Below, piece by piece: positions 2,957 to 49,282 of a stretch of 64,000 nucleotides of DNA (the first letter of the stretch is position 1; each line of letters opens with the position of its first letter). Source of the stretch: Cryobacterium glaciale (GTDB lineage Bacteria; Actinomycetota; Actinomycetes; Actinomycetales; Microbacteriaceae); contig NZ_SOEY01000006.1 in the NCBI RefSeq assembly GCF_004402535.1, forward strand, positions 62,001 through 126,000, written 5' to 3'. The position numbers and the translations under genes are program-made. The notes beneath the pieces are model-generated. The model had not been told where the DNA came from and did not search any database. It was given only the letters and a program-made list of their open reading frames with translations.

Positions 2957-5035
2957 GTGAGCTCCGACTATTCCGCCCGCCACCTGTCAGTCCTCGAGGG
3001 ACTGGAGGCAGTGCGCAAACGCCCCGGTATGTACATCGGTTCCACCGACTCGCGTGGTCTGATGCACTGCCTGTGGGAGATCATTGACAACTCCGTCGAT
3101 GAGGCCCTTGGCGGGCACGGCGCGAGCATCCACATTGAACTGCACCCCGACCAGAGCGTCGAAGTGCGCGACACCGCTCGCGGCATCCCGGTCGACATCG
3201 AACCCAAGACCGGCCTGACCGGCGTTGAGGTCGTGTTCACCAAGCTGCATGCCGGCGGAAAGTTCGGGAGTGGGTCTTACGCCGCGTCGGGCGGGCTGCA
3301 CGGGGTGGGAGCATCCGTTGTGAACGCCCTGTCCGAGCGGCTCGACGTCGAGGTCGACCGTGACGGCAAGACCTGGGCAATGTCCTTCCACCGCGGCGAA
3401 CCGGGCCTGTTCGCCGATTCGGGGGAGAAGAGCCCCGACGCGCCGTTCACCCCGTTCGAGAACCAGAGCGAACTGCGGGTGATCGGCAAGGTCAAACGCG
3501 GCGTCACTGGAACCCGTATCCGCTATTGGGCCGATCGCCAGATCTTTACCAAGGGAGCCGCTTTCCAGACCGACGAAGTGCTGAACCGAGCCCGCCAGAC
3601 GGCCTTCCTCGTACCTGGGCTCGCCATCGAGGTCGCTGACCGACGCACGGACGAGCCCGTGACCAGCCTGTTCCAATTCCACGGCGGCATCTCCGAATTT
3701 GTCGAACACCTCGCAACGGATGCTCCGATCACCGATACCTGGCGACTGACCGGCAGCGGCACCTTCCGTGAGACTGTGCCCGTGCTCACCGACAAGGGGG
3801 CGATGGTGCCGACCGAGCTCATGCGCGAGTGCCAGGTGGACATCGCCCTTCGTTGGGGCACCGGCTACGACACGATCGTGCAGAGCTTCGTCAACATCAT
3901 CGCCACGCCCAAGGGCGGAACCCACCAGGCCGGATTCGACGCCGGACTGCTGAAATTTCTGCGCGGCCAGGTCGACCTCAATGCCCGCCGCCTCAAGGTC
4001 GGCAGTGACAAGCTCGACAAGGACGACGTGATGGCCGGGCTCACCGCCGTGCTCACCGTGCGCCTGCCCGAGCCTCAGTTCGAGGGGCAGACCAAGGAGG
4101 TGCTCGGTACTCCGGCGGTGCGCGCGATCGTCGCGAACGTCGTGGCCACGGCCATGGCCGAACGGTACGCCTCGCCGAAACGCGACGACAAGACGCAGTC
4201 AGCCCTGTTGCTCGACAAGATCGTCGCCGAGATGAAATCCCGCATCTCCGCCCGGGCTCACAAGGAGACCCAGCGACGCAAGAATGCTCTGGAAAGTTCG
4301 TCCCTGCCGGCGAAGCTCGTCGATTGCCGCAGCAACGATGTGTCCACGAGCGAGCTGTTCATCGTCGAGGGGGACTCGGCCCTCGGTACCGCCAAGCTCG
4401 CCCGCGACAGCGAGCACCAGGCACTGCTGCCGATCCGCGGCAAGATTCTCAACGTGCAGAAGGCATCCGTTGCCGACATGCTCTCCAACACCGAGTGTGC
4501 CTCGATCATCCAGGTGATCGGTGCCGGTTCCGGCCGCAGTTTCGACCTGTCGGCGGCCCGCTACGGCAAGGTCATCATCATGAGCGACGCCGACGTCGAC
4601 GGCGCCCACATCCGTACCCTGCTCCTCACGCTGTTCTTCCGCTACATGCGACCGATGATCACCGAGGGCCGGGTCTTCGCCGCCGTGCCGCCGCTGCACC
4701 GGGTCGTCGTCATGAACCCGGGCAGCAAACCGAATGAGACCATCTACACCTATTCGGAGAACGAACTGCACGCGGTGCTGAGCGCGCTCGAGAAGAAGAA
4801 CCGTCGCTACCAGGACCCGATTCAGCGGTACAAGGGCCTTGGTGAAATGGATGCCGACCAGCTCGCGACCACGACCATGGAACGCGCCCACCGCACGCTG
4901 CGGCGGGTACGCGTCGATGACGCCGAATCCGCTGGAAAGGTATTCGAACTCTTGATGGGCAACGACGTGGCCCCCCGCAAGGAATTCATTATCGACAGTT
5001 CCGACACGCTCTCCCGTGATCGGATCGACGTCTAG
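2957..5035 (+). CDS. parE: Type IIA DNA topoisomerase (topoisomerase IV/gyrase-like) subunit B
   Basis: About 692 residues from GTG 2957; a TTG three codons upstream (2948) is possible but weaker. It is the ATPase/TOPRIM subunit that drives strand passage with subunit A. The GHKL ATPase domain has EIIDNSVDEALGG and the glycine-rich lid GGLHGVGASVVNAL. The TOPRIM domain has EGDSALGTAKLARD and the metal site DADVDGAHIRTLLL, and the C-terminus has the usual QRYKGLGEMDADQL block. The length fits ParE, or gyrase B without the proteobacterial insertion. The A subunit gene is convergent and close by. In actinobacteria this pair is usually the second type II enzyme besides gyrA/gyrB near the origin. 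Whether it mainly decatenates or relaxes DNA cannot be read from sequence. Confidence 0.93.
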   Translation: MSSDYSARHLSVLEGLEAVRKRPGMYIGSTDSRGLMHCLWEIIDNSVDEALGGHGASIHIELHPDQSVEVRDTARGIPVDIEPKTGLTGVEVVFTKLHAGGKFGSGSYAASGGLHGVGASVVNALSERLDVEVDRDGKTWAMSFHRGEPGLFADSGEKSPDAPFTPFENQSELRVIGKVKRGVTGTRIRYWADRQIFTKGAAFQTDEVLNRARQTAFLVPGLAIEVADRRTDEPVTSLFQFHGGISEFVEHLATDAPITDTWRLTGSGTFRETVPVLTDKGAMVPTELMRECQVDIALRWGTGYDTIVQSFVNIIATPKGGTHQAGFDAGLLKFLRGQVDLNARRLKVGSDKLDKDDVMAGLTAVLTVRLPEPQFEGQTKEVLGTPAVRAIVANVVATAMAERYASPKRDDKTQSALLLDKIVAEMKSRISARAHKETQRRKNALESSSLPAKLVDCRSNDVSTSELFIVEGDSALGTAKLARDSEHQALLPIRGKILNVQKASVADMLSNTECASIIQVIGAGSGRSFDLSAARYGKVIIMSDADVDGAHIRTLLLTLFFRYMRPMITEGRVFAAVPPLHRVVVMNPGSKPNETIYTYSENELHAVLSALEKKNRRYQDPIQRYKGLGEMDADQLATTTMERAHRTLRRVRVDDAESAGKVFELLMGNDVAPRKEFIIDSSDTLSRDRIDV

Positions 5036-5064
5036 CCCGTCCCTTTCCGCAGGCGGGGGGAGGA

Positions 5065-7557
<2,493 letters not shown>

Positions 7558-34906: not shown

Positions 34907-35018
34907 GAATTACCTCCCAGAATGGGGGGTCTGGGAAGGTTAATACCCAGCTTGATGGTTTACAACTGTGAAAGCGTCGTGATCGAACCTGTGATTGCGA
35001 GCGAGAGGAGACCACACT

Positions 35019-35387
35019 ATGGCTGACCGCAGTTTGCGTGGCATGAGATTAGGCGCACAAAGCCTACAGAGCGAAGAAGGCGTCACCTTCTCCCCCCGAT
35101 TACCGCACACCTACCGGTGTGAAACGTGTGGGCGGGAGACGGTTATGATTTTTTCGGCCGAAGCCGAGGCTCCGGACGAATGGGAATGCAAGTACTGTGC
35201 ACGGACGGCGACCCGGCTCGTTGACTCCCTGCCGGTGATCGTTGACCACTCGGACGAGAAGATCCCTCGGACCCACTGGGACATGCTGCTGGAACGTCGC
35301 ACCAGGGACGAACTCGAAGAGTTGCTCGAAGAGCGCCTCTCCGTGTTGCGTCTGCGCCGTGGTGGCCAGCAGAAGATCGGCGCCTGA
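35019..35387 (+). CDS. rbpA: RNA polymerase-binding protein RbpA
   Basis: 122 residues from ATG 35019 (GAGAGGAG upstream). RbpA binds the primary sigma factor and RNA polymerase and stabilises the open complex in actinobacteria. The start MADRSLRGMRLGAQSLQSEE matches the family N-terminus, which contacts promoter DNA. The zinc-ribbon core has CETCGRETVMIF and CKYC. The C-terminal helix RTRDELEELLEERLSVLR is the sigma-interaction domain. It is convergent with lnt, as in other actinobacteria. Confidence 0.95.
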   Translation: MADRSLRGMRLGAQSLQSEEGVTFSPRLPHTYRCETCGRETVMIFSAEAEAPDEWECKYCARTATRLVDSLPVIVDHSDEKIPRTHWDMLLERRTRDELEELLEERLSVLRLRRGGQQKIGA

Positions 35388-35501: not shown

Positions 35502-37028
35502 CTAGCGGCGTCGTGGACGCCGAGCGGCACCGATACAGAGCGCCAGACCGGCGAGGCCCAGCCCCGACACGAGCCATTCCACGCCGCGGCCGGCCAGCAT
35601 CGCCGGCGTGACGGCGTCACTGAGCGGCACCGTTTGCACCATGGCGCCCGCCGTGAAGGTCGGCAAGCTGTCCAGCGTCTGTCCGTCGGGAGTGATGATG
35701 GCGCTCGACCCGACGGTGGAGATGTTCACCACCGTGCGTGAAGTTTCCAGCGCGCGCAACCGGGCGATGGCGAGTTGCTGCACGCTCTCGTCGGTGCGGC
35801 CGAAATCGGCGTTGTTGGTCTGCGCGAGGATGATCTGAGCGTTTCCGTCGATCATCTCGCGCACGAGCTGATCGTCGGCGATGTCGAAGCAGATCGCGAT
35901 GCCAGCCAGCACCCCATCGATGTCGAAGATGTTGTCGCGGGTGCCGATGCCGTAGTCGCGGCCGATGAGGTCGATCAGGTCCGGGGCGAATGGTCGCCAG
36001 AAGGCCCGATCCGGCATGTATTCCGCGAACGGTACCGGATGAATCTTGTCGTAGACGTCGACGGCTCCCCGATCGGCCTTCCAGAGCAGCGAGCTGTTGA
36101 AATAGGTGTCTCCGGGCCGGGTGATGGTGCCGGTGATGAGCGGGGCATCCATTTCGGTGCTGATGTAGTCGAGTACCTGCGCCGCGGCTGCCGACCGGGT
36201 GGGGTCGATGTCGCTCGCGTTCTCCGGCCACACGACGAAATCGACCGTCTCGCCGAGCAGCGGCAGGGTGGCTGAGGTGTGGTCCTGCAGAATCTGGCCG
36301 GGGGCATACTCGGCGAACAGCCCGGCATCCGCGTTGCCCTGCACTGCGGCCAGGCGGATCGTTCCGCTCTGGATGGTCGGCCAGGCCGGGATGGCGAGGA
36401 CGAGCGCGACGGCTCCGACGCCAATGCCGGCGCGCAGGGTGCGTGCCAGGTCGGGCTCGCGGCACAGCTGCACGGCGAGGGCGCTCAGCCAGACCACGAT
36501 GAAGCTCAGGCCGGACAGGCCGACCCAGGCGACGAGTGGTCCGAACGGGCTCTCCGACTGCGACAGCGCGACTCGGCCCCAGGCAAAACCACCATAGGGC
36601 CAGACCGCGCTGATGGCTTCACGCGCCGTCCACAGACCGGCGACAATGACAGGCAGGAGACCGAGACGGCCCCAGCTGCTCGGCCAGACTCGCGGACCGT
36701 GCCGCAGCACGACGGCGGTGAAGCCGAGTCCGGCGGCGAAGAACAGGCTCTGCAGCCCGCCGAGCGCAAACCACGGCACGAGACCGAGATACAGGGTGAT
36801 CCAGAAGATGTGGATCAGCCAGAACGACAATCCGGCGACCAGCCCCACGAGCAGCCCGGTGCCCAGGCTGCGTCCGAGCAGGGCCAGGAGCATGAGAGCG
36901 ACGCCCACGGGCGCGAGAAACCACCAGTCGCGATCGGGGAAACCGGCATCGAGAATCGCTCCGGCGCCCGCGGCGACGAGAACGGATGCCCACAACGGCA
37001 GGCTGAACGCACGCTCACTCCCCCCCAT
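35502..37028 (-). CDS. lnt: Apolipoprotein N-acyltransferase
   Basis: 508 residues from ATG 37028. It adds the third fatty acid to lipoproteins; in actinobacteria it is a homolog of the Ppm1 Lnt domain. About seven N-terminal membrane helices precede the nitrilase domain (about 215-460). The catalytic triad is visible as Glu in VVWPENASDID, Lys in YDKIHPVPFAEYMP, and Cys in GIAICFDIADDQL. A last helix ends the protein. No polyprenyl-monophosphomannose synthase domain is fused. It starts seven bases after helY and closes the long - strand operon. Confidence 0.92.
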   Translation of the reverse strand: MGGSERAFSLPLWASVLVAAGAGAILDAGFPDRDWWFLAPVGVALMLLALLGRSLGTGLLVGLVAGLSFWLIHIFWITLYLGLVPWFALGGLQSLFFAAGLGFTAVVLRHGPRVWPSSWGRLGLLPVIVAGLWTAREAISAVWPYGGFAWGRVALSQSESPFGPLVAWVGLSGLSFIVVWLSALAVQLCREPDLARTLRAGIGVGAVALVLAIPAWPTIQSGTIRLAAVQGNADAGLFAEYAPGQILQDHTSATLPLLGETVDFVVWPENASDIDPTRSAAAAQVLDYISTEMDAPLITGTITRPGDTYFNSSLLWKADRGAVDVYDKIHPVPFAEYMPDRAFWRPFAPDLIDLIGRDYGIGTRDNIFDIDGVLAGIAICFDIADDQLVREMIDGNAQIILAQTNNADFGRTDESVQQLAIARLRALETSRTVVNISTVGSSAIITPDGQTLDSLPTFTAGAMVQTVPLSDAVTPAMLAGRGVEWLVSGLGLAGLALCIGAARRPRRR

Positions 37029-37035
37029 GGCCGGT

Positions 37036-39495
37036 TCAGGCCACCGAGGAGTACGCGACGATGCCGCGACGGATCGCGTCCATGGCCGCCCGGGCGGTCG
37101 ACCCGACCTGTGCGTCGCCGGCGATGGACAGTTGATCGAGCAGGTCGATGGTTTGTTTGGTCCAGCGCACGAAATCGCCGGCGGCCATCTCCGCTTCGTA
37201 GAGCACGTCGCTCAGTGACGCGCCGCGGGCCCATTTCCACATGGCGAGGCTGAGGCCGACCGCGAGCGGATTGCTGCCGGGCAGTTTGTGGTCGCGTTCG
37301 AGGTCGTCGATGCGGCTCCAGAGGTCTTGCGTCTCGTCGAGGGCGGGGCGGAAAGCACCCTTGGGCAGGAAGCGGGCATCGATGAGTCCCTCTTCCCGGC
37401 GCGGCTCGAAGACGAGCGCACAGGCCATCGCTGCGAGGCTCGCGGCATCGAGTTCGTTCCACAGGCCCCGGCGCAGGGACTCGGCAACGAGCAGATCCCG
37501 TTCCGCGTAGATGCGGCGCAGGATGCGTCCGCTCTCGCTGAGCGCGATGGCGCCGCTCGCATCGGATTCGAGATAACCGTAGCCGAGGAGAACATCGGAC
37601 ACCCGGTCGAAAACGCGGGCGATGGCTCCGGTGCGCTGCGAGATTTGCTGGTTGAGGGCATCCTTTTGCCGCTTGAGTTTGAACCATCGTTCCGCCCACC
37701 GGGAGTGCGCCTCCCGGTCTGGGCAGTGGTGGCAGCCGTGTGCGCGCATTTGCTTGCGCAGGCTGGTCACTTCACGCTGACGCTTGTCCCGCTCACCGCG
37801 TAGGGAATTATCGGCCTTGGTGCCTTCGCGTTCCACCTCGGTCAGACGGCGACGAATCGACGAGTAGTCCTCGAAATTGCCCAGGTGGCAGGTCATGCTG
37901 GTCTTGAATCCGGCCAGGGACTCTTCTTGCTGGCGCACCGAGCGGGCCAGGTCGACGACGGCGCGATCGGCCTGGAACTGCGCGAACGACGATTCCAGCA
38001 CTCCGCGGGTGCGCACGACACCGAACTGGTCGATGAGATTGACGGCCATGTTGTAGGTCGGCTTGAAGCTCGAATTCAGCGGATAGGTGCGCCGGGAGGC
38101 GAGCGAGGCAACGGCCTGGGGGTCGAGTCCCTGCGCCCACTGGATGACCGAGTGGCCGAGAGTGTCGATGCCGCGGCGACCGGCCCGACCGGTCAGCTGC
38201 GTATATTCCCCCGGCGTGATCGGAACCCGAGCCTCACCGTTGAACTTCTCGAGTTTGTCCAGGACGACCGTGCGGGCCGGCATATTGATGCCGAGCGCAA
38301 GCGTTTCCGTCGCGAACACCGCCTTGACGAGCTTCTTCTGGAACAGCTCCTCCACGACTTCCTTGAACGCCGGCAGCAGGCCGGCGTGGTGGGCGGCGAC
38401 ACCGCGTTCGAGCCCGTCCAGCCACTCGAAGTAGCCGAGCACGCCGAGGTCTTCGTCGAGCAGGGTACGGCACCGATCGTCGACGATCTGGCGAATTTCT
38501 TCGCGCTCGTGTTCCTGCGTCAAACGCACCCCGGAGCGGAGAACCTGCCGCACGGCCTGGTCGCAGCCGACCCGGCTGAAGATGAAGAAGATGGCCGGCA
38601 GCAAATGCTTGCCGTCGAGCATGCGCACGATATCGCCACGATCCATCCGACCGGCGTCGAACTGCGGGCGCTGCTTGTCATGCCCCCGGTAGCCCCCGGA
38701 GGCGCCGCCCTGGCGGCCGGAACCTCGGCCGCGCCCGCCAGCCGAGCGCCCCCCGGCGTGGGCCAGACGAACGAGTTCGGGGTTCACCCGATGGGTGCCG
38801 ATCAGGCCGGTGGAATCAAACAGGTCGAGCATATTGTTCTTGACGAGCACGTGTTGTTCGAGCGGGACCGGCCGCTCCTCAGACACGATCACGTCGGTCT
38901 CGCCGCGCACGGCCTGCAACCAGTCTCCGAATTCTTCCGCATTCGACACCGTCGCGCTGAGCGAGACCATGCGCACCGGCTGGGGAAGATGGATGATCAC
39001 TTCCTCCCACACAGCTCCTCGAAAACGGTCCGCGAGATAGTGCACCTCGTCCATCACCACGAAGGCGAGGTTCGTCAGCAGATCGGAGTCGGCATAGAGC
39101 ATGTTCCGGAGCACCTCGGTCGTCATGACCACGATGCGTGCTCCCGGATTGACGTTGCTGTCACCGGTAAGCAACCCCACCTGGTCTGCGCCGTACTCGG
39201 CAACGAATTCCTGGAACTTCTGATTGCTGAGCGCCTTCATGGGCGCGGTATAGAAAACTTTCGCACGGGACTGTCGCATCGCCAAGTAGATCGCGAACTC
39301 GGCCACGATCGTTTTGCCGGCTCCGGTCGGTGCTGCCACAAGCACACTATTGCCGGCCTCCAGACAGGCGCAGGCCTCGCGCTGAAACGGATCGAGGTCG
39401 AATTTGAGGCCGCCCTCGAAGTCCTGCAGCATTGGCTGGCCGGCCCGGGTGCGTGCGGCCGCGTACCGTTCGGCCGGCGATTGCGTGTGCGTCAC
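37036..39495 (-). CDS. helY: Ski2/HelY-type DEAD/DEAH RNA helicase
   Basis: 819 residues from GTG 39495. It belongs to the Ski2-like superfamily 2 helicases and is expected to unwind RNA in decay or ribosome-related work. Motif I is APTGAGKTIVAEFA, motif II MDEVHYLADR and motif VI QLTGRAGRRGID. An Arg/Gly-rich insert lies near 250-270 (GGRGRGSGRQGG). The C-terminal DSHCT-like region carries a CHHCPDREAHSRWAER segment. It follows tatC by 36 bases and precedes lnt. The order tatA-tatC-helY is conserved across actinobacteria. Confidence 0.93.
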   Translation of the reverse strand: MTHTQSPAERYAAARTRAGQPMLQDFEGGLKFDLDPFQREACACLEAGNSVLVAAPTGAGKTIVAEFAIYLAMRQSRAKVFYTAPMKALSNQKFQEFVAEYGADQVGLLTGDSNVNPGARIVVMTTEVLRNMLYADSDLLTNLAFVVMDEVHYLADRFRGAVWEEVIIHLPQPVRMVSLSATVSNAEEFGDWLQAVRGETDVIVSEERPVPLEQHVLVKNNMLDLFDSTGLIGTHRVNPELVRLAHAGGRSAGGRGRGSGRQGGASGGYRGHDKQRPQFDAGRMDRGDIVRMLDGKHLLPAIFFIFSRVGCDQAVRQVLRSGVRLTQEHEREEIRQIVDDRCRTLLDEDLGVLGYFEWLDGLERGVAAHHAGLLPAFKEVVEELFQKKLVKAVFATETLALGINMPARTVVLDKLEKFNGEARVPITPGEYTQLTGRAGRRGIDTLGHSVIQWAQGLDPQAVASLASRRTYPLNSSFKPTYNMAVNLIDQFGVVRTRGVLESSFAQFQADRAVVDLARSVRQQEESLAGFKTSMTCHLGNFEDYSSIRRRLTEVEREGTKADNSLRGERDKRQREVTSLRKQMRAHGCHHCPDREAHSRWAERWFKLKRQKDALNQQISQRTGAIARVFDRVSDVLLGYGYLESDASGAIALSESGRILRRIYAERDLLVAESLRRGLWNELDAASLAAMACALVFEPRREEGLIDARFLPKGAFRPALDETQDLWSRIDDLERDHKLPGSNPLAVGLSLAMWKWARGASLSDVLYEAEMAAGDFVRWTKQTIDLLDQLSIAGDAQVGSTARAAMDAIRRGIVAYSSVA

Positions 39496-39531: not shown

Positions 39532-40326
39532 CTAGAGCGCGAGTTCTTTTTCGAACGCGAGCACTTTCCTGGCCACGCGCCGATCGTGCAGCCAGGCGAT
39601 GCCATAGGCGGCAAAGTACAACATGACCATGGGAATGGCCAGCAGGAACATCGACACGACGTCGGCGGCCGGGGTGGCGATCGCCGTGAAGAGCACGATG
39701 ACCAATATGGCGATCCGCCAAGATTTGATGATCGACGTGGCACTGATGACGCCGGCGAAGTTGAGAAGCACGATGAAGACCGGCAGCACGAACGCAATTC
39801 CGATCGCTACGACGAGCTTGAGCACGAAGTCAAAGTATCCCTGCGCGTTGATGAACGCCGAATCCTCGGTGGGGGCGAAGCTCGTCATGAGCTCGACCAC
39901 GTGCGGCAGTACGATCCACCCCGCTGCGCAGCCGGCCAGAAACAAGGGAATGGCCGTGAACAGGAATCCGAAGGTGTATTTCTTCTCGGTGCGGGTGAGC
40001 CCGGGAACGAGGAAGGCGAAGACCTGGTAGAGCCACACCGGGCTCGAAACGATGAGCCCGACATAGAGCGAGATCTTCAGTTTGAGGTCGAAAGCACTCG
40101 TGATGTCGGGGTAGTTGATCTGGGCGTTACGATGTTGCGCATTGATGATGGCATAAATCGGTTCGCGCAGCTGATCCCAAACGAAATCGGAAAGGAACCA
40201 ACCAGCGATGGCACCGATGAGGAGACCGGCCGCAGCCAGATAGAGGCGCTTGCGCAGTTCGATCAGATGCTGGCCCAGCGACATCTTTCCCGCTTCGGTC
40301 GCACTTCGTCGGGCGCGGACCGCCAC
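39532..40326 (-). CDS. tatC: Twin-arginine translocase subunit TatC
   Basis: 264 residues from GTG 40326, four bases after the tatA stop. An ATG at 40284 (MSLGQHLIELRKRL) has a fair GGGAAAG site and may be the true start, as that is the usual TatC beginning. It is the receptor for twin-arginine signal peptides. Six membrane helices and the conserved LRKRL and FLVPGLTRTEKKYTFGF regions are visible. The C-terminus is cytoplasmic and basic/acidic. Confidence 0.94.
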   Translation of the reverse strand: MAVRARRSATEAGKMSLGQHLIELRKRLYLAAAGLLIGAIAGWFLSDFVWDQLREPIYAIINAQHRNAQINYPDITSAFDLKLKISLYVGLIVSSPVWLYQVFAFLVPGLTRTEKKYTFGFLFTAIPLFLAGCAAGWIVLPHVVELMTSFAPTEDSAFINAQGYFDFVLKLVVAIGIAFVLPVFIVLLNFAGVISATSIIKSWRIAILVIVLFTAIATPAADVVSMFLLAIPMVMLYFAAYGIAWLHDRRVARKVLAFEKELAL

Positions 40327-40330
40327 GGTG

Positions 40331-40579
40331 CTAGGGCTTGACGGCGGGATCGGCTGGGCCGGCCGCCGTCGGGCCGGACGTCTTCGATGCGTCATTCCCC
40401 GCGGACTGGGCCGCAGCGTTGGGATCAGGATCGACAGAATCGCTCTTGATCTCGCTCTTGAAGATCTTCATCGACTGCCCCAGGCTTCGCGCGAGTCCGG
40501 GAAGCTTGGGAGCACCGAAGAGGAGCAGTACGACGACGAGGATGATCAGGAAATGCCATCCGGTCAGGTTTTGCAGCAT
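40331..40579 (-). CDS. tatA: Twin-arginine translocase subunit TatA
   Basis: 82 residues from ATG 40579. A single N-terminal membrane helix (about 8-24) is followed by the family hinge [16 protein letters not shown], an amphipathic helix, and a charged, Ala/Pro-rich tail. It forms the pore-like assembly for folded-protein export with TatC, whose gene follows. The FGAPKLP form is usual in actinobacteria (FG-KLP). Confidence 0.94.
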
Positions 40580-40613: not shown

Positions 40614-40928
40614 TTAGCGGGCGTTTCGCATCAGTTTACCCCGCACGATCAGCGCATCGCGACGCAGCTGGCGTCGGTGGGTGCGTTCCACTCGCTGCTG
40701 CTCGACATCGTGCAGCAGCACTGTCGCATCCGCGAACGCGGCGGCAGCGAAGGGAGGCGTGGCGGACGACAGATCACGGTCGATTGCGGAGACCTGATCG
40801 CTCAAAGATTCCAGAGCCCGCAGAGTCCCACGGACCTGACGGTACAGCGCCACGGTGAACCAGCTGAGCACAGCCAGCAGGCCGAGCGCCAACATGCACC
40901 AGATGAGCAGCCAGGACCACCAGGGCAT
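40614..40928 (-). CDS. Small single-pass membrane protein between pafBC and tatA
   Basis: 104 residues from ATG 40928, three bases after the pafBC stop. An N-terminal membrane helix (WWSWLLIWCMLALGLLAVL) is followed by a predicted coiled-coil stretch (LRALESLSDQVSAIDRDL) and a very basic C-terminus with RTHRRQLRRD. I do not recognise the family. It lies inside the pafBC-tat-helY operon; homologs at this place in other Micrococcales would make a link to the Tat system worth testing. Confidence 0.7.
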   Translation of the reverse strand: MPWWSWLLIWCMLALGLLAVLSWFTVALYRQVRGTLRALESLSDQVSAIDRDLSSATPPFAAAAFADATVLLHDVEQQRVERTHRRQLRRDALIVRGKLMRNAR

Positions 40929-40931
40929 CCG

Positions 40932-43088
40932 CTAGCCCTCTTCCGACGTTGACTCGTTACCGGAATATTGCGCGAGTCCGGCCGCGGCCCAGTCGGCGAC
41001 TACAGCCCGCGATTCGGCCGGTTCGAGAACGGTTACGATTCCGGCCAGGCCGGTGACGAGGCGTTTCAACGCATGAGCGTGAGCGACGCGCAGGGTGGTG
41101 CGGGTGCGGGCTCCCGAGCCGATGGGTTCGGACCGTTCGGGATGGTAATCAGCCAGCAGCGGCAGGGCCGCGGTCGCGAGCTCGAGTCGGACGTCGATGT
41201 CTTCGGCTGACGCCTGGAACAGGGTGTCGGGCAGGAGCAGGTCGGCCGGGTGCGTGCTGCGCGGCGCGGCGGTGACTCGTGGGCTGCTCATCCGGTCCAG
41301 CCGGAACGTGCGCACGGCTTCCCGGAGGTGACACCAACCGCGAAGATACCAGTCGCTGTCGACGGATTCAATGCGCAACGGGTCCACAAGTCTGTGTTCC
41401 TGGCCGCCGCGAGCATTGAGATAGTCGAACTCGACCTGCATCCCGGTGCTCAAAGACGTCTGCACGATATCGCGGGTGGTACCGGCATCCCGCTGAGCGA
41501 CGGCGACCTGCGTGGGCGGCGCCGATGCGCCGCGAGTCAACTTGGCCATCAGTGACGCGATGGCGTCGGTGTCGGTATTGTGGGGAAGCGCGGACAGATA
41601 CTGCAGTCCGGCAATGAGCGCTGCGGCCTCGCGGGCCGAGAATCGTGGTGAATCGTCGATGGCGACCTGGTGGGTGAGTACGATCCGATCGTTGTTCTCG
41701 AATTCGTCCCAGAGAATGTCGAACAGGTCGCCGTGCAGGTACTGGTGCGTTTCCCCGGGGATACCAGACAGGGCAATCAGGCTGACCAGGCCACGAACCC
41801 GCTCCGGTGTAAGTCCGAAGTGCTCGGCTACCTCGGAGACGGTGACGCGTCCCTGATCGATGAGGTACGGGACGAGGGACAGCAGGAGGGTGAGTTGGTC
41901 ACCGGCCACCCGCGGCTGGGCGGCCGGTCTGCCCGTAGCCGCGAGCAGCGGTGGCGTTCGACGTCGCGGCGTGCGCCCGGACAAGGCGGCCGGCAGCCGA
42001 CTGGCATGAGCGTCCCGAGCCGCGACGAGTCGATTTCGCACGGCGGTGCGTAAGGCGCGAGGAGTGTCGACGAACACTTCGGGGCCGAATCCGGCCAACT
42101 CGTCGGCGAGGATGTTCAGGTCGGTGAAGTGCAGTGTGCGCTCAAGCCCAGTCGACTCGTCGGCCGGCGGGTTGGTTGTCGTGTGCCTGGCACCGAGGCG
42201 CACGGCGGCGTCGGAGCCTGGCAGCACGACAACTCGGGCAGTGTTGCTGGCCCACAGGGCGTCGAGCTCGGCGAGAGCGCGGGCGCTGTCCGTCGTCCCG
42301 TCGGCCGCGCGTCTGGCCGCGTCGTCAGACTCGCCGTCACTGAACGGAGCAGGAATCGCGTGGGGAACGACCGCCACGGCGCCGACGATGCGCGCCAGGA
42401 GGAATGTTCGCGGTGCGTGAACGGCCTCATCTGTGGCGTACAGGTGCCAGCGGCCGTCATGCTGCACGATTGCGCGCGGAGCTACCACCCGACGTGCCGG
42501 TTTGGTCTGCCCCGGCTTGAGGTAGAGGAAGGCCACGACCTGCGCGCGGTCCATCGCCTTGGCGAGAGGTTCAAAGCTCTGGTCCCTCGTGCGCACCAGG
42601 GGTGCGTAACCGAGGACCGGTTCGCTCGATTCGACACCGAGAGAATTCAATTTCATCAGCGCGCGTCGTGATTCCCCCGACAACGATCCTTCCCGCCAGA
42701 CGGTGCCGGCGAGTTTGAGCAGGGACACCTCGTCGGGCGTGAAGGTCACGTCGGCCGGCAGGTCGTAGAGACCTTTGGGGATTCGATAGCGCAGGAAGTG
42801 ATTGCTGCCGGGATCGTCCGGCGGCTCGATAGTTTCCAGCGGAATACCCAACTCGCGGATGTCGTCTTTATCCCGCTCAAACTGGCGTTCCAGACTCTCG
42901 TTGGAGCCGCCGGAAACGTACCGCTGGCGGTACCCCTGCACGTTGGCCAGGATGTCGGATTTGGTCAGCCCCGATTCCGTTGCCACGAGCGCCAGAACCA
43001 GGCTGAACAGCCGCTCCGGAGCCGCGACCGCCAGCGGTTTGAGTTCGGTTCGCTCGGTTGAATCTGAGTGAGGGGGCGTCGGAGTCAC
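40932..43088 (-). CDS. pafBC: PafB-PafC fusion, WYL-domain transcriptional regulator
   Basis: 718 residues from GTG 43088. Residues 1 to about 350 are PafB-like, with an N-terminal winged HTH (ERLFSLVLALVATESGLTKSDI) and a WYL domain around 190-260. Residues about 390-718 repeat the plan as PafC, with HTH segment VSEVAEHFGLTPERVRGL and WYL-like VDPLRIESVDSDWYLRGWC. In mycobacteria PafB and PafC are separate and act as a heterodimer that switches on the LexA-independent DNA-damage response. Here the two are one chain. No pafA, pup or proteasome genes are beside it. Confidence 0.9.
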   Translation of the reverse strand: MTPTPPHSDSTERTELKPLAVAAPERLFSLVLALVATESGLTKSDILANVQGYRQRYVSGGSNESLERQFERDKDDIRELGIPLETIEPPDDPGSNHFLRYRIPKGLYDLPADVTFTPDEVSLLKLAGTVWREGSLSGESRRALMKLNSLGVESSEPVLGYAPLVRTRDQSFEPLAKAMDRAQVVAFLYLKPGQTKPARRVVAPRAIVQHDGRWHLYATDEAVHAPRTFLLARIVGAVAVVPHAIPAPFSDGESDDAARRAADGTTDSARALAELDALWASNTARVVVLPGSDAAVRLGARHTTTNPPADESTGLERTLHFTDLNILADELAGFGPEVFVDTPRALRTAVRNRLVAARDAHASRLPAALSGRTPRRRTPPLLAATGRPAAQPRVAGDQLTLLLSLVPYLIDQGRVTVSEVAEHFGLTPERVRGLVSLIALSGIPGETHQYLHGDLFDILWDEFENNDRIVLTHQVAIDDSPRFSAREAAALIAGLQYLSALPHNTDTDAIASLMAKLTRGASAPPTQVAVAQRDAGTTRDIVQTSLSTGMQVEFDYLNARGGQEHRLVDPLRIESVDSDWYLRGWCHLREAVRTFRLDRMSSPRVTAAPRSTHPADLLLPDTLFQASAEDIDVRLELATAALPLLADYHPERSEPIGSGARTRTTLRVAHAHALKRLVTGLAGIVTVLEPAESRAVVADWAAAGLAQYSGNESTSEEG

Positions 43089-43176
43089 GGTGCGATCCTA
43101 TCTTCCTAACAACACTGCACGAGCGGGATCACAGGCGCATGGAGATCACGCCCATCAACGCGCTGAGTTTCGACAA

Positions 43177-44115
43177 TCAGTCGATGCCCAGGATGTCCAC
43201 TGCGTAGACCAGGGTTGAACCACCGGGAACCTTGTCCTGCGTTTCCGGGCCAAAGCCCAGGTCAGGCGGAACAACGACGACGAGCTGGGAGCCGACGGTC
43301 TGACCGGTGAGCGCGGTCGCCAGGCCCTCCGGCAGGTCACCCAGTGCTGCCACGCGGGGACTTCGGGTCGCCCAGGTGGACTCGAAGACCGTGTCTCCCG
43401 CCCACAACAGGCCGGTGTAGTGAATCACGACCGTAGAGTCAGCCGGAACCTTCTCGCCAGCGCCTTTCTTGAGGAGACCCACTTCCAGACCCGTCGGCAT
43501 ATCACCGGACGGAAGCACGATGCCGGGTGTGCCGTCGGCATCCAGCACCACGGCAGGAAGACCGTTAGCGACGGCCTGCTCTTCTCCGTCGGCCCGCGGC
43601 AGGAAAGCCTTGACGATGTCAACGACGAGAACGAGAGAATCCGTCGCGCCGATTTGGAGCTGATCGTTGACACCGAGGCCGTCCTCCGGTGCCATGACGA
43701 CCGCAACGCGCTCGCCCACCCGGGTGCAGACCAAACCATCGACAAGTCCGGCAATGGTGGTATCGCCCAGAGCGAGTGGTAGGGCGGTGCTGCCGTCGAA
43801 AGCTCCCAACTGGAGAGCAGCGCCGGTTGTGCCGTTGTACAGGTTCAATTCGACCGAGACCATCTGCCCGGGAAGCACCCGTTGCCCGGAGCCCGCAATG
43901 ATCTCACTGCGCTGAGTGGTGGATGACTTCAGCGGCGTCGGAAAGCTGACCGCCGGAGCAGAACCGAGATTCCCCGTCACCGTGACCAGCTTCGAGGCCG
44001 GGCCCGACGCGGCCCCCGCGTCGCAGGAGGCCTGGGCGCTGCCAGGGCTGGCGCACGCCGTCAGTGCCGTCATCACGAGGCCGGCGGTGATGATCAGCGC
44101 GGATGCTTTGCGCAC
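43177..44115 (-). CDS. FKBP-type peptidyl-prolyl isomerase lipoprotein
   Basis: 312 residues from GTG 44115 (AAGGA five bases upstream). The lipobox LTACASPG lies near residue 22, so the protein is anchored outside the membrane. The C-terminal FKBP domain (about 205-312) has VVIHYTGLLWAGDTVFESTW and VPPDLGFGPE. Residues about 65-190 look like a second, degenerate FKBP-like domain (GQMVSVELNLYNGTTG, GLVCTRVGERVAVV). It probably assists folding of exported proteins, which suits the tat genes downstream. Confidence 0.88.
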   Translation of the reverse strand: MRKASALIITAGLVMTALTACASPGSAQASCDAGAASGPASKLVTVTGNLGSAPAVSFPTPLKSSTTQRSEIIAGSGQRVLPGQMVSVELNLYNGTTGAALQLGAFDGSTALPLALGDTTIAGLVDGLVCTRVGERVAVVMAPEDGLGVNDQLQIGATDSLVLVVDIVKAFLPRADGEEQAVANGLPAVVLDADGTPGIVLPSGDMPTGLEVGLLKKGAGEKVPADSTVVIHYTGLLWAGDTVFESTWATRSPRVAALGDLPEGLATALTGQTVGSQLVVVVPPDLGFGPETQDKVPGGSTLVYAVDILGID

Positions 44116-44245
44116 AAGTCCTTCTTTCGGTACGGGGTTGCTGCAACATGGGTCTGCTGCGCTGGTGTGAGGGGTGGTAGGGGTGCTGCGGGCGCATGAT
44201 GGCTGCGGCTTCGGCGCACTACAACCAAAAGGGCCGGGGTCCATC

Positions 44246-45247
44246 CTAACCGGCGTCGAGGTCTCGAGCCTTGGAAAGCTCGGCGCTCGTGCCGGCGGCG
44301 CGCACGCGTTTACGCATGACTTTCGCGCTCACGTTGCGTTCGCCGAGCGCTCCGGGAGTCCAGGCCTCGACATCCGCGTCGCTGAAGTCTGTCTTGGAGG
44401 GGCGTCGTTTCAGTTCCGGCAGGATCGTGTCGGGGGCCAGACGTCGAGCGGTGATGAGGAAGCCGGTGTGGCCGATCATGCGATGATCCGGTCGCACGGC
44501 GAGACCCTCCACATGCCAGCCTCGAATCATCGTTTCGTTGGAATCCGGGTTGGTATAGAACCCCGTGCCGCGGATGGCTTCAGCGACGCGGGAGAGCTGC
44601 GTCACCGTGGCGACGTAGCAGAGCAGCACTCCCCCAGGCTTGAGGGCATCGGAAACGGCGCCGAGGCATTCCCACGGAGCCAGCATGTCCAGGACGACTC
44701 GGTCGACGCTGTGCGCCGGCAGGGTATCGGGCAGCGTCTCGGCGAGGTCACCGAGCGTGATGGTCCAGTTCTGTGGGTCGGATCCGAGGAAGGTGGCGAT
44801 ATTGTCCCTCGCCACATCGGCGAATTCTTCGCGCCGTTCGAAGGAGGCCAGCCGGCCGGCCGGCCCGATCGCGCGCAGCAGCCAGAGTGACAGCGCCCCC
44901 GAACCGACGCCGGCCTCGACGACGGTTGCGCCGGGAAAGATATCCGCCTGCGCGAGGATCTGGGCAGCGTCCTTGGGGTAGATAATTGCGGCACCGCGCG
45001 GCATGCTCATCACGAAATCCACCAGCAGGGGTCGCAGGGCAAGATGTTCGACCCCGACGTTGTTGCTGACGACGGATCCGTCTGGCTGCCCGATGATGTC
45101 GTCATGCGCGAGGATGCCGCGGTGTGTGTGGAAGGTGAGGCCCTCCTGGAGCGTGATGGTGTTCATCCGCCCCTTGGGCCCGGTGAGTTGCACCCGGTCG
45201 CCGACGCGAAAAAGCCCACTGTTCTGGATGACCTGGTTATTGCTCAT
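44246..45247 (-). CDS. trmI: tRNA (adenine-58-N1)-methyltransferase
   Basis: 333 residues. ATG 45247 overlaps the HAD stop (ATGA). It makes m1A58 in the T-loop of tRNAs. The N-terminal small domain starts MSNNQVIQNSGLFRVGDRV, and the SAM-binding domain has VVEAGVGSGALSLWLLRAIG, VDRVVLDMLAPWE and a family-like basic C-terminus. In other actinobacteria trmI heads the block leading into the Pup-proteasome genes; here it is followed by FKBP after 130 bases. Confidence 0.92.
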   Translation of the reverse strand: MSNNQVIQNSGLFRVGDRVQLTGPKGRMNTITLQEGLTFHTHRGILAHDDIIGQPDGSVVSNNVGVEHLALRPLLVDFVMSMPRGAAIIYPKDAAQILAQADIFPGATVVEAGVGSGALSLWLLRAIGPAGRLASFERREEFADVARDNIATFLGSDPQNWTITLGDLAETLPDTLPAHSVDRVVLDMLAPWECLGAVSDALKPGGVLLCYVATVTQLSRVAEAIRGTGFYTNPDSNETMIRGWHVEGLAVRPDHRMIGHTGFLITARRLAPDTILPELKRRPSKTDFSDADVEAWTPGALGERNVSAKVMRKRVRAAGTSAELSKARDLDAG

Positions 45248-46032
45248 GCGAGTGGTGCACTTTCGTTTCGGGCGGACCCGGTGGGGGCGAGAGGATGAAC
45301 GGGAGCGGCCGAATCGGACCGCGTCGAGATGTGGTACAGCGCGGTAATGTCTTCGAGGGTGCGCCCGGTGAGGGTGGACCAGCGGGTGTAATAGTCGCTC
45401 TCCGGAAGGTCGATCTGGTGCGGAACGGCGATGGTGATGGTGCCGGCCGCAACAGCGGATGCGACGCCAGGCAGGGAATCCTCGATCGCGACGCACTCCG
45501 CCGGGTCGACTCCGAGTTGCGCGGCAGCGACCAGGTACGGATCCGGGTGCGGCTTGCTGTTGGCGACCATATCGCCGGCGACGACAACGTCGAACGCGAC
45601 GAAATCGATGAGGTCGATGATCTGGCGGGCCATGCGCTCCACCGACATTGTCACGAGTGCGGTCGGGACACCGGCGGCTTTCAACTCCTGCAGCAGCTCG
45701 CGTGATCCGGGACGCCAGGGAATACCGTGTTCAGCCAGCTGCTCCTGCACGCGATCCGTGAGGCGGGCCACGATGGCATCCGGGGAGAGTTCCACGCCTC
45801 GCGCTTGCAGGATCGCAGCGGAATTCCACAGCCCGGATCCGACGAGCAACATACCGTCATCGTGGGTCCAGACACCGCCGAACTCGGCCACGAGTTCAGT
45901 TTCCGCCCGCATCCAGTACGGTTCGGTGTCGACGATGGTGCCGTCCATGTCCCAGAGGACAGCAGCGGGCAGGGAAAGGGGCGTGGGCAGCGGTAGCGGA
46001 AAAACATTCACGGGGTTCAAGTGTAGGGCCAC
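45244..46032 (-). CDS. HAD family hydrolase (phosphatase/phosphoglucomutase-like)
   Basis: 262 residues from GTG 46032, with AAGGA six bases upstream; GTG 46011 is a shorter option. Motif I is WDMDGTIVDTEP, a Thr/Ser motif II lies near ALVTMS, the Lys is in ANSKPHPDPYL, and motif IV is CVAIEDSLPGV. The cap is alpha-helical (class I). The family dephosphorylates sugar phosphates or similar small molecules. It overlaps trmI by four bases and diverges from the PAC2 gene. Confidence 0.9.
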   Translation of the reverse strand: MALHLNPVNVFPLPLPTPLSLPAAVLWDMDGTIVDTEPYWMRAETELVAEFGGVWTHDDGMLLVGSGLWNSAAILQARGVELSPDAIVARLTDRVQEQLAEHGIPWRPGSRELLQELKAAGVPTALVTMSVERMARQIIDLIDFVAFDVVVAGDMVANSKPHPDPYLVAAAQLGVDPAECVAIEDSLPGVASAVAAGTITIAVPHQIDLPESDYYTRWSTLTGRTLEDITALYHISTRSDSAAPVHPLAPTGSARNESAPLA

Positions 46033-46091
46033 CGCCTATCCTTGACTGAGGCCCTCCACGTGGGAGGCCGAAGGAATTGAGGACAGACACG

Positions 46092-47039
46092 GTGGCTGAC
46101 GGTAATGGGTTTCTGAGCGGTCGCCTTCTGGTCGTCGCTTTCGAAGGCTGGAACGATGCCGGAGAGGCCGCGACGGGTGCCGTTCGCGCGCTCAAGGACC
46201 TGCTCGACGTCGAGGTGATCACCGAGGTCGATCCGGAGTTGTACTTCGACTATCAGTTCAACCGGCCGAACGTTTCGACGAATGAAGACGGCGTTCGCGC
46301 GCTCGGCTGGCCGGGCGCGATCATGTACGGCCCCAAAACGCCTGGAGTCGTCAGCGTTCCCCTCGCCGAAGATGCCCAGTTGCGGGTCAGCGGAACCAAC
46401 GCGGGCAACATCTACCTTCTGATCGGCACGGAGCCGTCACGCAGCTGGAAGAGTTTTGCCGCAGAGATTCTCGACTCGGCTCTCGCCGCCGACGTGAGTT
46501 GCGTGGTGTTCCTCGGAGCGATGCTCGCCGATGTTCCGCACACCCGTCCGATTTCGATCTTCGTTTCCAGCGACAATGCGCAGGTTCGCGCCGAGCTACA
46601 GATCGAACGCAGCAACTACGAGGGCCCGGTGGGTATTCTCAGCGTGTTGTCGGACGCCGCCGAGACGCTCGGAATTCCTACCCTGTCGATTTGGGCATCC
46701 GTCCCCCATTATGTGCATAACGCCCCCTCGCCCAAGGCGATGCTCGCGTTGATCGACAAGCTCGAGGAGGTCATCGACGTGGTCATCCCCCGCGGGGCGC
46801 TCGTCACCGAAGCGGCCGACTGGGAGACCGGTATCGACGTCCTGGCCGGAGAGGACGAGGAAATGGCCGCCTACATCGCCCAGCTTGAGCAGGCCCGCGA
46901 CACCGTCGACTCGCCCGAAGCGAGCGGAGAAGCTATCGCGCAGGAATTTGAGAAGTACCTGCGCAAGCGCGGCGGCGACGGCCGACCCGACGGTCGCCCG
47001 GATGGTCCCGGCAGCAGGCCCGACGGCCCACGACACTAG
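46092..47039 (+). CDS. PAC2 family protein
   Basis: 315 residues from GTG 46092 (GAGGA eight bases upstream); a TTG at 46077 is an alternative. Signature regions are LLVVAFEGWNDAGEAATGAV, GTEPSRSWKSFA and PHYVHNAPSPKAMLALI. The fold is that of the eukaryotic proteasome-assembly chaperone PAC2, but the bacterial role is unknown and need not involve a proteasome. The C-terminus is an Arg/Gly/Pro-rich repeat of GRPDG/GP-type units. No proteasome genes are in the window, which argues against a strict link. Confidence 0.9.
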   Translation: MADGNGFLSGRLLVVAFEGWNDAGEAATGAVRALKDLLDVEVITEVDPELYFDYQFNRPNVSTNEDGVRALGWPGAIMYGPKTPGVVSVPLAEDAQLRVSGTNAGNIYLLIGTEPSRSWKSFAAEILDSALAADVSCVVFLGAMLADVPHTRPISIFVSSDNAQVRAELQIERSNYEGPVGILSVLSDAAETLGIPTLSIWASVPHYVHNAPSPKAMLALIDKLEEVIDVVIPRGALVTEAADWETGIDVLAGEDEEMAAYIAQLEQARDTVDSPEASGEAIAQEFEKYLRKRGGDGRPDGRPDGPGSRPDGPRH

Positions 47040-47075: not shown

Positions 47076-48368
47076 CTACAGCGCAACGCCGAGCAGTGCG
47101 CTGATCGCACGGTTGACCAGGCCGAGGTCATCGAGCGGGACGTCGACCGCGTCGTCGATGAGCTGCAGGGCCTCTGGAGTGTCGAGGTCATGGCGGAGCG
47201 CGAGCCGGAGGGATTGCACAAGCTCGGCGGACGCACCGGTCGTCGCCGTGCCAGCTGCGCCCGCGGCAGTGGTCACGGCCGCAGCTCCGAAGGCCGCAGT
47301 CCACACGGACAGGCGCACGACGGCCTCGTCCAATAGCGCTGCGGTCCATTCCCAGTCGGTGCGGTAGTGCCGGGCCAGGAGCGCCAGTCGAATCGCGCGC
47401 GGGTCGAAACCGCCGGCGCGCAGCCTTGAGACCAGAACGAGGTTTCCGAGGGACTTGCTCATTTTCTCGCCCCGATACGCCACCATTCCGGTGTGGCTGT
47501 AGACGCCGGCAAGCGGATGTCCGGACAGCGCCTGTGCGTGCCCGGCACTCATGTCGTGGTGCGGGAAGATCAGGTCTGAGCCGCCCCCCTGCACGGTGAA
47601 ATCGGTGCCGAGTTCTTTCAGGGCGATGACCGAACATTCGATGTGCCACCCGGGTCTCCCGGCACCGACCATCGATTCCCACGCCGGTTCGCCGGCTCGA
47701 GCGGCTTTCCACAGCAGCGGGTCGAGGCGATCGCGTTTGCCTGCCCGGTCGGGGTCTCCCCCGCGCTCGGCGAACAGCCGGAGCATGCTGACCAGGTCGA
47801 GGTTGCTCTCGTCGCCGAGGGTCCAGTCTGTGCTGGTTTCAGCCGCTTGAATGTCGAAATACAGGTCAGCTGCGATCGTTCCGTCAGCCCCTGCGATGGC
47901 ATCGTCCGTCGGCACGGTGTAGGCGAACCCGGCTGCCTGCAGGAGCGCGACGGCGGCGGCGACCTCGTCGATGACCTCGGTCACGGCGACGAAATCATTC
48001 GGCGGAATAATGCCGAGGGACTCCATGTCGGTGCGGAACAGTTCAACCTGCGATTCGGCCAGCTCACGCCAGTCCACGCCGGTGGCGGTGGCGCGTTCCA
48101 GAAGCGGATCGTCGACGTCCGTCACGTTCTGGGCGTAGTGCACGCGGAAACCGGCGTCGATCCAGACCCGCTGCAGGGTGTCGAAGGCCAGGTAGGTGTT
48201 GGCGTGGCCGATGTGGGTCGCGTCGTAGGGTGTAATTCCGCAGACGTAGAGGCGGGCGGCATCGAGCGGCCGTGCCAGCACGAGGCTGTCGGTTTTGGTG
48301 TCGTGGAGCCAGGGTGCACTCGACTCACCGGGGACAGAGACAATGTCGGGTCGTTCCCATGCACGCAT
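47076..48368 (-). CDS. mshC: Cysteine:1-D-myo-inositol-2-amino-2-deoxyglucopyranoside ligase (mycothiol synthesis)
   Basis: 430 residues from ATG 48368. It is a cysteinyl-tRNA-synthetase-like enzyme that joins cysteine to GlcN-inositol in mycothiol production. LYVCGITPYDATHIGHANTY holds the zinc Cys and the HIGH-like motif, IECSVIALKELG holds another zinc ligand, and GEKMSKSLGN is the KMSKS loop. The short C-terminus, without the anticodon-binding domain of CysRS, fits MshC. It supports an actinobacterial host. Confidence 0.93.
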   Translation of the reverse strand: MRAWERPDIVSVPGESSAPWLHDTKTDSLVLARPLDAARLYVCGITPYDATHIGHANTYLAFDTLQRVWIDAGFRVHYAQNVTDVDDPLLERATATGVDWRELAESQVELFRTDMESLGIIPPNDFVAVTEVIDEVAAAVALLQAAGFAYTVPTDDAIAGADGTIAADLYFDIQAAETSTDWTLGDESNLDLVSMLRLFAERGGDPDRAGKRDRLDPLLWKAARAGEPAWESMVGAGRPGWHIECSVIALKELGTDFTVQGGGSDLIFPHHDMSAGHAQALSGHPLAGVYSHTGMVAYRGEKMSKSLGNLVLVSRLRAGGFDPRAIRLALLARHYRTDWEWTAALLDEAVVRLSVWTAAFGAAAVTTAAGAAGTATTGASAELVQSLRLALRHDLDTPEALQLIDDAVDVPLDDLGLVNRAISALLGVAL

Positions 48369-48427: not shown

Positions 48428-49282
48428 CTACGCGGAGATGACGTTGGTGCCGAGGAGCACGAACAGCACGATGCCGAGCACGATGCGATAGATCACGAAC
48501 GGGAGAAAACTCCGTTTGGAAATGTAGTTCATGAAGAAGGCGATCACGGCGAGGGCAACGACGAAGGCGATGATCGTTGCCACGAGTGTTTCGAGCGGTC
48601 CGAAGATTTCGGGGGTGCAGGTGGTCGCGCCGGCCAGGCAGGGTTCGGCGATGGACTTGTAGACCTGGAAGAAGCCGCTCCCGAGAACGGCGGGAATCGC
48701 CAGCAGGAAGGCATAGCGGGCAGCGGCGGCGCGCTCATAGCCGAGGAACAGGCCAGCGGTGATGGTTCCGCCCGACCGGGACACGCCTGGGATCAGCGCG
48801 AGCGCCTGGGCGAAGCCGTAGATTGCACCGTGGCCGACGGTGATGTCTTGCAGTTTGCGCCGTTTGGCGCCGACGTAGTCGGCAATGCCGAGCAGGACGC
48901 CGAAGACAATGAGCATGGTGGCGGTGATCCAGAGCGAGCGCAGCACGGTCTCGATCTGGTCCTGGAACAGCAGGCCCAGAATGATGATGGGCAGCGAGCC
49001 CAGAATGATCAGCCAGCCCAGGCGGGCATCCGGGTCCGCTCGCGGGACTCGGCCAGTGAGGGATCTGGCCCACTGACCGATGATGCGCACGATGTCGCGC
49101 CAGAAAAAAATGACGACGGCTGCCTCGGTGCCGATTTGCGTGATGGCGGTAAATCGAGCCCCAGGGTCTTCACCGGTGCCGAGAAACTGGCCGACAATGG
49201 TGATGTGCGCGCTCGAGGACACCGGAAGGAACTCGGTCAATCCCTGGACCAGGCCCAGGATGATCGCATTCAGAAAATCCAC
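48428..49282 (-). CDS. uppP: Undecaprenyl-diphosphate phosphatase
   Basis: 284 residues from GTG 49282. This membrane enzyme recycles undecaprenyl diphosphate for cell-wall synthesis (BacA family). The catalytic region [15 protein letters not shown] and the second loop [11 protein letters not shown] are intact. About eight membrane segments are present. One periplasmic loop holds Cys residues ([13 protein letters not shown]), perhaps a disulfide. It follows the M20 hydrolase on the same strand by about 75 bases. Confidence 0.95.

Follow-up and report, generated by a model that had tools for sequence, protein, structure and literature searches.

In mycobacteria, RecA-NDp promoters are the sites from which PafBC activates recA, among other genes, and RecA is later lowered again by the proteasome system, as described in a review (PMC8223512). 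The same review regards all Actinobacteria as having the Pup-proteasome locus and reports a strict co-occurrence of Bpa with the core genes (PMC8223512). A review from 2019 describes the core genes as lost in about half. One from 2013 describes proteasomes as nearly universal among actinobacteria and adds that, of four genomes examined by other authors, two probably had no proteasome genes (PMC4255298). Retention of pupylation after loss of the 20S core is already well known: in Actinobacteria of the Corynebacterium glutamicum type, prcBA has been secondarily lost and the pupylation enzymes have been kept. Here, we analyzed the corresponding locus of Cryobacterium glaciale, a member of the Microbacteriaceae, in a stretch of 64,000 nucleotides (assembly GCF_004402535.1, contig NZ_SOEY01000006.1, positions 62,001 to 126,000; hereafter, the window). 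As in the C. glutamicum type, prcBA is missing, but the pupylation enzymes are gone as well, in this genome and throughout the Microbacteriaceae genomes searched. The family is, therefore, an exception to the view that all Actinobacteria have the locus. We consider it highly probable that the whole block mpa-dop-pup-prcB-prcA-pafA was deleted on the stem of the family and that PafBC was kept, most likely still activating recA.

The initial annotation had noted that mpa (or arc), dop, pup, prcB, prcA and pafA were missing from the window, and had proposed a clean deletion or a relocation of the block. The absence holds for the window, which contains zero matches to the six proteins, and also for the genome (3,715,656 bases in 35 contigs, 99.33% complete). 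No match in the genome was obtained with the profiles for Pup (PF05639), PafA/Dop (PF03136) and 20S or HslV subunits (PF00227), and the Mpa profile (TIGR03689) retrieved only AAA+ cross-matches, the best of which reached 159 bits compared to a cut-off of 504.75. The proposed search of the rest of the genome for pup, pafA, prcA and mpa thus revealed none of them. The reference block proteins were checked by NCBIfam and all scored above the cut-offs (Mpa 823.8, Dop 657, PafA 689.3, PrcB 303.7, PrcA 277.1 and Pup 67.2 bits). Because the genome is 99% complete and four profile searches of it recovered no block gene, a relocation of the block within this genome is very unlikely.

The absence extends to the whole family. 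PafA/Dop was found in 0 of 299 Microbacteriaceae genomes from 85 genera, that of C. glaciale included (0/268 among the good genomes), and 20S subunits were found in 0 of 100, again with C. glaciale included. Pup was over the cut-off in none of 100 genomes, and neither was Mpa, for which 99 of the 100 yielded lower cross-matches with a maximum of 163.3 bits. Two matches below the cut-offs were not counted as genes. The first is a Pup match of 22.2 bits in genome G065, the only one among the 100 genomes, in a frame without the C-terminal GG[EQ]; the second is a PF03136 match in G662 with an E value of 7e-4. These counts bear on the idea that the block now lies at another locus or has diverged past recognition. 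In principle, operons are often transferred as a whole, and the C. glaciale assembly is split into 35 contigs; however, several of the 299 genomes without PafA/Dop are single contigs, 20S subunits are missing from all 100 genomes searched, and the reach of the PafA/Dop profile is good, since 353 of the 396 genomes of the order gave a match above the cut-off. We regard movement or divergence of the block as extremely unlikely.

The deletion is not specific to C. glaciale or to the genus Cryobacterium. The junction between trmI and the gene for an FKBP-type isomerase was compared in two sets of Microbacteriaceae loci. The first comprised 60 loci out of 100 genomes, mostly from different genera, with fragmentary or weak TrmI places left out. 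The second comprised the best 80 of 592 relatives and is, therefore, biased to close kin; it included Cryobacterium, Leifsonia, Agromyces, Rathayibacter, Clavibacter, Microbacterium, Curtobacterium, Frigoribacterium and Leucobacter, and also two loci with titles of other groups that are probably mislabelled (L228, Microthrixaceae, and L235, Planococcus). FKBP was the next marker after trmI in 60/60 and 80/80 loci, and no block gene was found at the junction in any of the 140. PafBC was present in 59/60 and 80/80 loci, a HAD hydrolase in 58/60 and 80/80, and PAC2 in 54/60 and 79/80. That the initial annotation rested on one genome could speak for a recent local deletion or an assembly gap in this strain. 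Yet, the junction is identical in 140 of 140 other loci of the family, and the contig of the window is continuous across it, so that an event confined to this strain is virtually impossible.

Two loci of these sets differ from the others. Locus L117, the only one of the 140 without a PafBC match, belongs to a genome of 0.93 Mb (G015), a size in keeping with Tropheryma, and sits on a very long branch in the TrmI tree. Locus L118 has a gap of 1.5 kb at the junction, which was considered as a block remnant and rejected, as it holds an insertion, namely a gene of glycosyl hydrolase family 10 (4006-5548) placed exactly between trmI and the FKBP gene.

Next, 16 loci from 15 other families of the order, each centred on a PafA/Dop match, were laid out as an outgroup. 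In all 16, the block adjoins at least one of trmI and the FKBP gene. TrmI is shown in 14 stretches (13 families), L034 and L042 being the two without it, and Mpa follows TrmI in all 14. Of the 16 loci, 14 have FKBP next to PafA; the exceptions are L039, which ends before PafA, and L045, which contains PafA without an FKBP match. Pup exceeded the tblastn threshold in 6 of the 16. Locus L035 (family f6) reads MshC-PAC2-HAD-TrmI-Mpa-Dop-Pup-PrcB-PrcA-PafA-FKBP-FKBP-PafBC-hyp104-TatA-TatC-HelY, and the reference order given in the initial annotation is thus found there, from MshC to HelY, with the block in place. The window shares with L035 trmI, FKBP, pafBC, tatA, tatC, helY and PAC2 in like order and orientation, whereas the six core genes are all absent from it. 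In a TrmI tree built with a quick method, from which the two outgroup loci lacking TrmI were omitted, one branch separates 61 rows of the Microbacteriaceae from 14 rows that carry the Pup-proteasome system (PPS), with a support of 96 in the Shimodaira-Hasegawa-like approximate likelihood ratio test (SH-aLRT), and one change of state therefore suffices.

The outgroup also bears on the alternative that the Microbacteriaceae never had the block, the other families having acquired it at this position at a later time. The consulted sections of the review cited above derive the Mpa and 20S genes most likely from horizontal transfer (PMC8223512). However, the same neighbours flank the block in 15 families of the order, and PafA/Dop was found in 250 of 296 genomes across the class. 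Because the block occupies one site in many families, a late gain would need many insertions there, and we regard this scenario as highly improbable. The initial annotation would have been contradicted by a family ancestor that never had the block here, and the results divide on this point: the block had most likely already gone by the time of the last common ancestor of the Microbacteriaceae analyzed, whereas it very probably stood at this site on the stem of the family, since the 16 loci of 15 other families show it next to trmI, FKBP or both.

We also analyzed whether a PafBC-type promoter is found in front of recA, using the 300 bases upstream of recA from 30 genomes (18 Microbacteriaceae, 12 outgroup) and the consensus TTGTCRGTG-N7..9-TAnnnT, scored out of 12. 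A predicted site with a score of at least 10 was present in 14 of 18 Microbacteriaceae and in 12 of 12 outgroup genomes, compared to none of 30 control stretches taken from within recA. Against shuffled sequences, p was at most 0.05 in 13/18 and 12/12 genomes, respectively. Like the PafBC/RecA-NDp pathway of mycobacteria and Arthrobacter, C. glaciale thus combines a fused PafBC, carrying WYL domains and the PafC helix-turn-helix (HTH), with a predicted match in the recA promoter. Judged from these predicted sites, the circuit of PafBC and recA seems to have been kept in most Microbacteriaceae, with its proteolytic arm gone. As a separate observation, the recA promoters at L286 and L292, from families f3 and f14, contain an identical site of 23 bases, which might reflect chance, close kinship or contamination.

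Several points weigh against a single ancestral deletion with a conserved circuit. First, the Microbacteriaceae are not the only family of the order in which PafA/Dop is missing. A match was found in 354 of the 396 genomes of the order, 353 of them over the cut-off; G662 is the sole Microbacteriaceae row matched in this search and, by inference, the one below it. Among the 42 genomes without a match, 20 were listed and all belong to the Microbacteriaceae, 19 were inferred (10 Microbacteriaceae, 8 of family f4 and 1 of f3), and 3 were unplaced. The f4 genomes without PafA/Dop are also without PafC (0/8). Among other single genomes without PafA/Dop, PafC was found in G690, G833 and G918 and not in G768 and G901, and G625 gave a weak match; the completeness of G690, G768 and G901 is 60-81%.

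Second, the proteasome core can be missing where the pupylation genes are present, which raises the alternative of a graded decay in two steps, with prcBA lost first and the pupylation genes later. 20S subunits were found in 122 of 198 genomes, and no genome of f3, f4 or f10 and only two of f12 are among these carriers, while PafA/Dop is present in these families. In the outgroup, prcBA was found in 13 of 16 loci, missing in the early-ending L039 and in the two f3 loci L032 and L033, which show Mpa-Dop-PafA without a prcBA match. As families with PafA/Dop and without 20S exist, the two-step path exists in nature. However, no intermediate was found in 299 Microbacteriaceae genomes, and we regard a loss in two steps as possible, but doubtful.

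Third, no scar or remnant was found at the junctions, and the deletion can therefore be neither dated nor read from the DNA. The spacers of 140 junctions (that of the window included, that of L118 excluded) were translated in six frames and compared to the block proteins. The 840 frame queries yielded 8 protein matches with E values of at most 0.01, as expected by chance, and none of the 8 came from the spacer of the window. A blastn-short search of the spacers gave 50 short matches, and those among the matches listed were scattered over the outgroup loci. Fourth, the promoter evidence is not uniform. The letters of the consensus are provisional. The recA site of C. glaciale scored 10 of 12 and is borderline, with p values of 0.020 and 0.056 in two shuffles. 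Four of the 18 Microbacteriaceae genomes had scores below 10. G055 and G036 reached 9, as did G015 (locus L294; p 0.77), a genome without PafBC, and G010, a genome with PafBC, scored 8 (p 0.73).

The simplest reading of these results is, nevertheless, a deletion that took place before the radiation of the family. The interpretation in the initial annotation is supported in part: a clean deletion is supported, but at the scale of the whole family, and the genome offers no sign of relocation; the comparison of the junction in related genera, which it had recommended, uncovered the same junction throughout. On the Microbacteriaceae stem, the stretch from mpa to pafA between trmI and the FKBP gene would have been deleted. 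With it, the 20S core and the unfoldase would have disappeared, together with pupylation and depupylation. The genes trmI, FKBP, pafBC and tat would have been brought together undamaged, and the descendants, including Cryobacterium, would have inherited this junction. The loss was probably a single event, instead of loss of the core first and of pupylation later, and probably a loss instead of a late gain elsewhere. PafBC was retained, most likely as an activator of recA to this day, and the ending of the damage response must presumably now rest on other proteases, such as ClpP or FtsH complexes.

A second loss was found in another order. PafA/Dop was detected in 0 of 27 genomes of family f44 (5 listed, 22 inferred), which may be the Nanopelagicaceae, whereas the PafC HTH is present in all 27. 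Eight loci were laid out, seven from f44 (L296-L299 and L301-L303) and one from f57 (L300). In the seven f44 loci, no block gene was found between TrmI and PafBC, and matches to TatA, TatC and HelY follow. L298 contains some 880 bases free of markers between TrmI and PafBC, and the junctions of L299 and L303 each contain an FKBP match on the other strand. In the f57 locus, FKBP and PafBC were found, whereas TrmI and the block genes were not. Family f44 thus lost the block independently and kept PafBC. The two families are alike in the absence of PafA/Dop, the retention of PafC and the lack of the block between TrmI and PafBC. They differ in that the f44 genomes are small (1.2-2.2 Mb), compared to up to 4.6 Mb in the Microbacteriaceae, and in that FKBP is missing from the f44 junction or lies on the opposite strand.

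A large family with full-size genomes that, as far as searched, lacks the locus and retains PafBC, FKBP and PAC2 makes it possible to separate roles that were inferred from gene neighbourhood. One study proposed that PAC2 is a chaperone of the proteasome and that FKBP assists pupylation (PMC2588565). Because both persist without the block, PAC2 in 133 of 140 loci, these cannot be their only roles in the Microbacteriaceae. The family is a natural knock-out and, together with the independent loss in f44, could reveal how the PafBC damage response ends without pupylation. Microbacteriaceae are easily cultured. A literature search with partial coverage found no report of the loss of the block from a whole family; absences from single species may be in print.

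As for the proteases that could take over, Lon (PF05362) matched 297 of 297 genomes of the order, but just 10 of these scored over 200 bits, namely G426 of f18 and nine genomes of f16. Lon was rejected as a replacement, as the 23 Microbacteriaceae genomes sampled, from five genera, gave weak cross-matches only. With HslV absent and Lon weak, the ClpP and FtsH complexes are left as candidates by inference.

The C-terminus of RecA (loci L266-L294) provided a further lead, as it differs sharply between the two groups. In 16 of 18 Microbacteriaceae genomes, RecA ends in [GST]A, mostly after basic residues, with Ala-rich tails; the exceptions are G036 and G015, and the median tail length is 32.5 amino acids (16 measurable). 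In the PPS families, the last residue is F in 10 of 11 readable sequences, 7 of which end in VDF or VEF, and the median tail is 18; RecA of G366 ends in NA, and that of G330 runs off its locus. RecA of E. coli and of M. tuberculosis also ends in -DF. The loss of the Pup-proteasome might have forced a re-routed off-switch for PafBC, in which the longer RecA tail, in most cases with basic residues and -GA or -SA at its end, would act as a C-terminal ClpP degron and replace the pupylation of RecA. We regard this idea, which is drawn from the tail sequences, as improbable. The tail change is one change on one branch, noticed post hoc, and therefore does not establish a cause. In the locus of G330 (L295), the RecA match is split in two, with both parts in one open frame of 779 amino acids, as with an intein.

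The gene order of the window was established with open reading frames, Pfam and tblastn (Table 1). It agrees with that given in the initial annotation, including the retained PafBC and PAC2, both verified by Pfam, and the distance of 130 bases between trmI and the FKBP gene; the HAD hydrolase and the protein of 104 amino acids had been omitted there.

Table 1. Genes around the trmI-FKBP junction in the Cryobacterium glaciale window (positions 1 to 64,000).
Feature	Position	Strand	Basis and remarks
uppP/bacA	48428-49282	-	Pfam BacA
mshC-like gene, cysteinyl-tRNA-synthetase fold	47076-48368	-	Pfam tRNA-synt_1e; the name mshC is that of the initial annotation, from context
PAC2-family protein	46077-47039	+	Pfam PAC2; retained without any 20S proteasome
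HAD-family hydrolase	45244-46032	-	Pfam HAD_2; overlaps the trmI start
trmI, tRNA m1A58 methyltransferase	44246-45247	-	Pfam TrmI-like_N, GCD14; left junction flank
trmI-FKBP junction spacer, 130 bases	44116-44245	-	Site of mpa-dop-pup-prcB-prcA-pafA in other families
FKBP-type peptidyl-prolyl isomerase	43177-44115	-	Pfam FKBP_C; lipoprotein-like start; right junction flank
Fused PafB-PafC transcriptional regulator, 718 aa	40932-43088	-	Pfam WYL (two), HTH_PafC, WCX; retained
104-aa protein between pafBC and tatA	40614-40928	-	No Pfam family
tatA	40331-40579	-	Pfam TatA_B_E
tatC	39532-40395	-	Pfam TatC
helY-type helicase	37036-39495	-	Pfam DSHCT, DEAD
lnt	35502-37028	-	Pfam LNT_N, CN_hydrolase
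rbpA	34995-35387	+	Pfam RbpA

A scan of positions 40800-45400 for promoters and terminators detected none. The TrmI proteins of the window and of Cryobacterium gelidum share 98% identity. The protein of 104 amino acids is conserved, as it recurs in many Microbacteriaceae loci and in L035.

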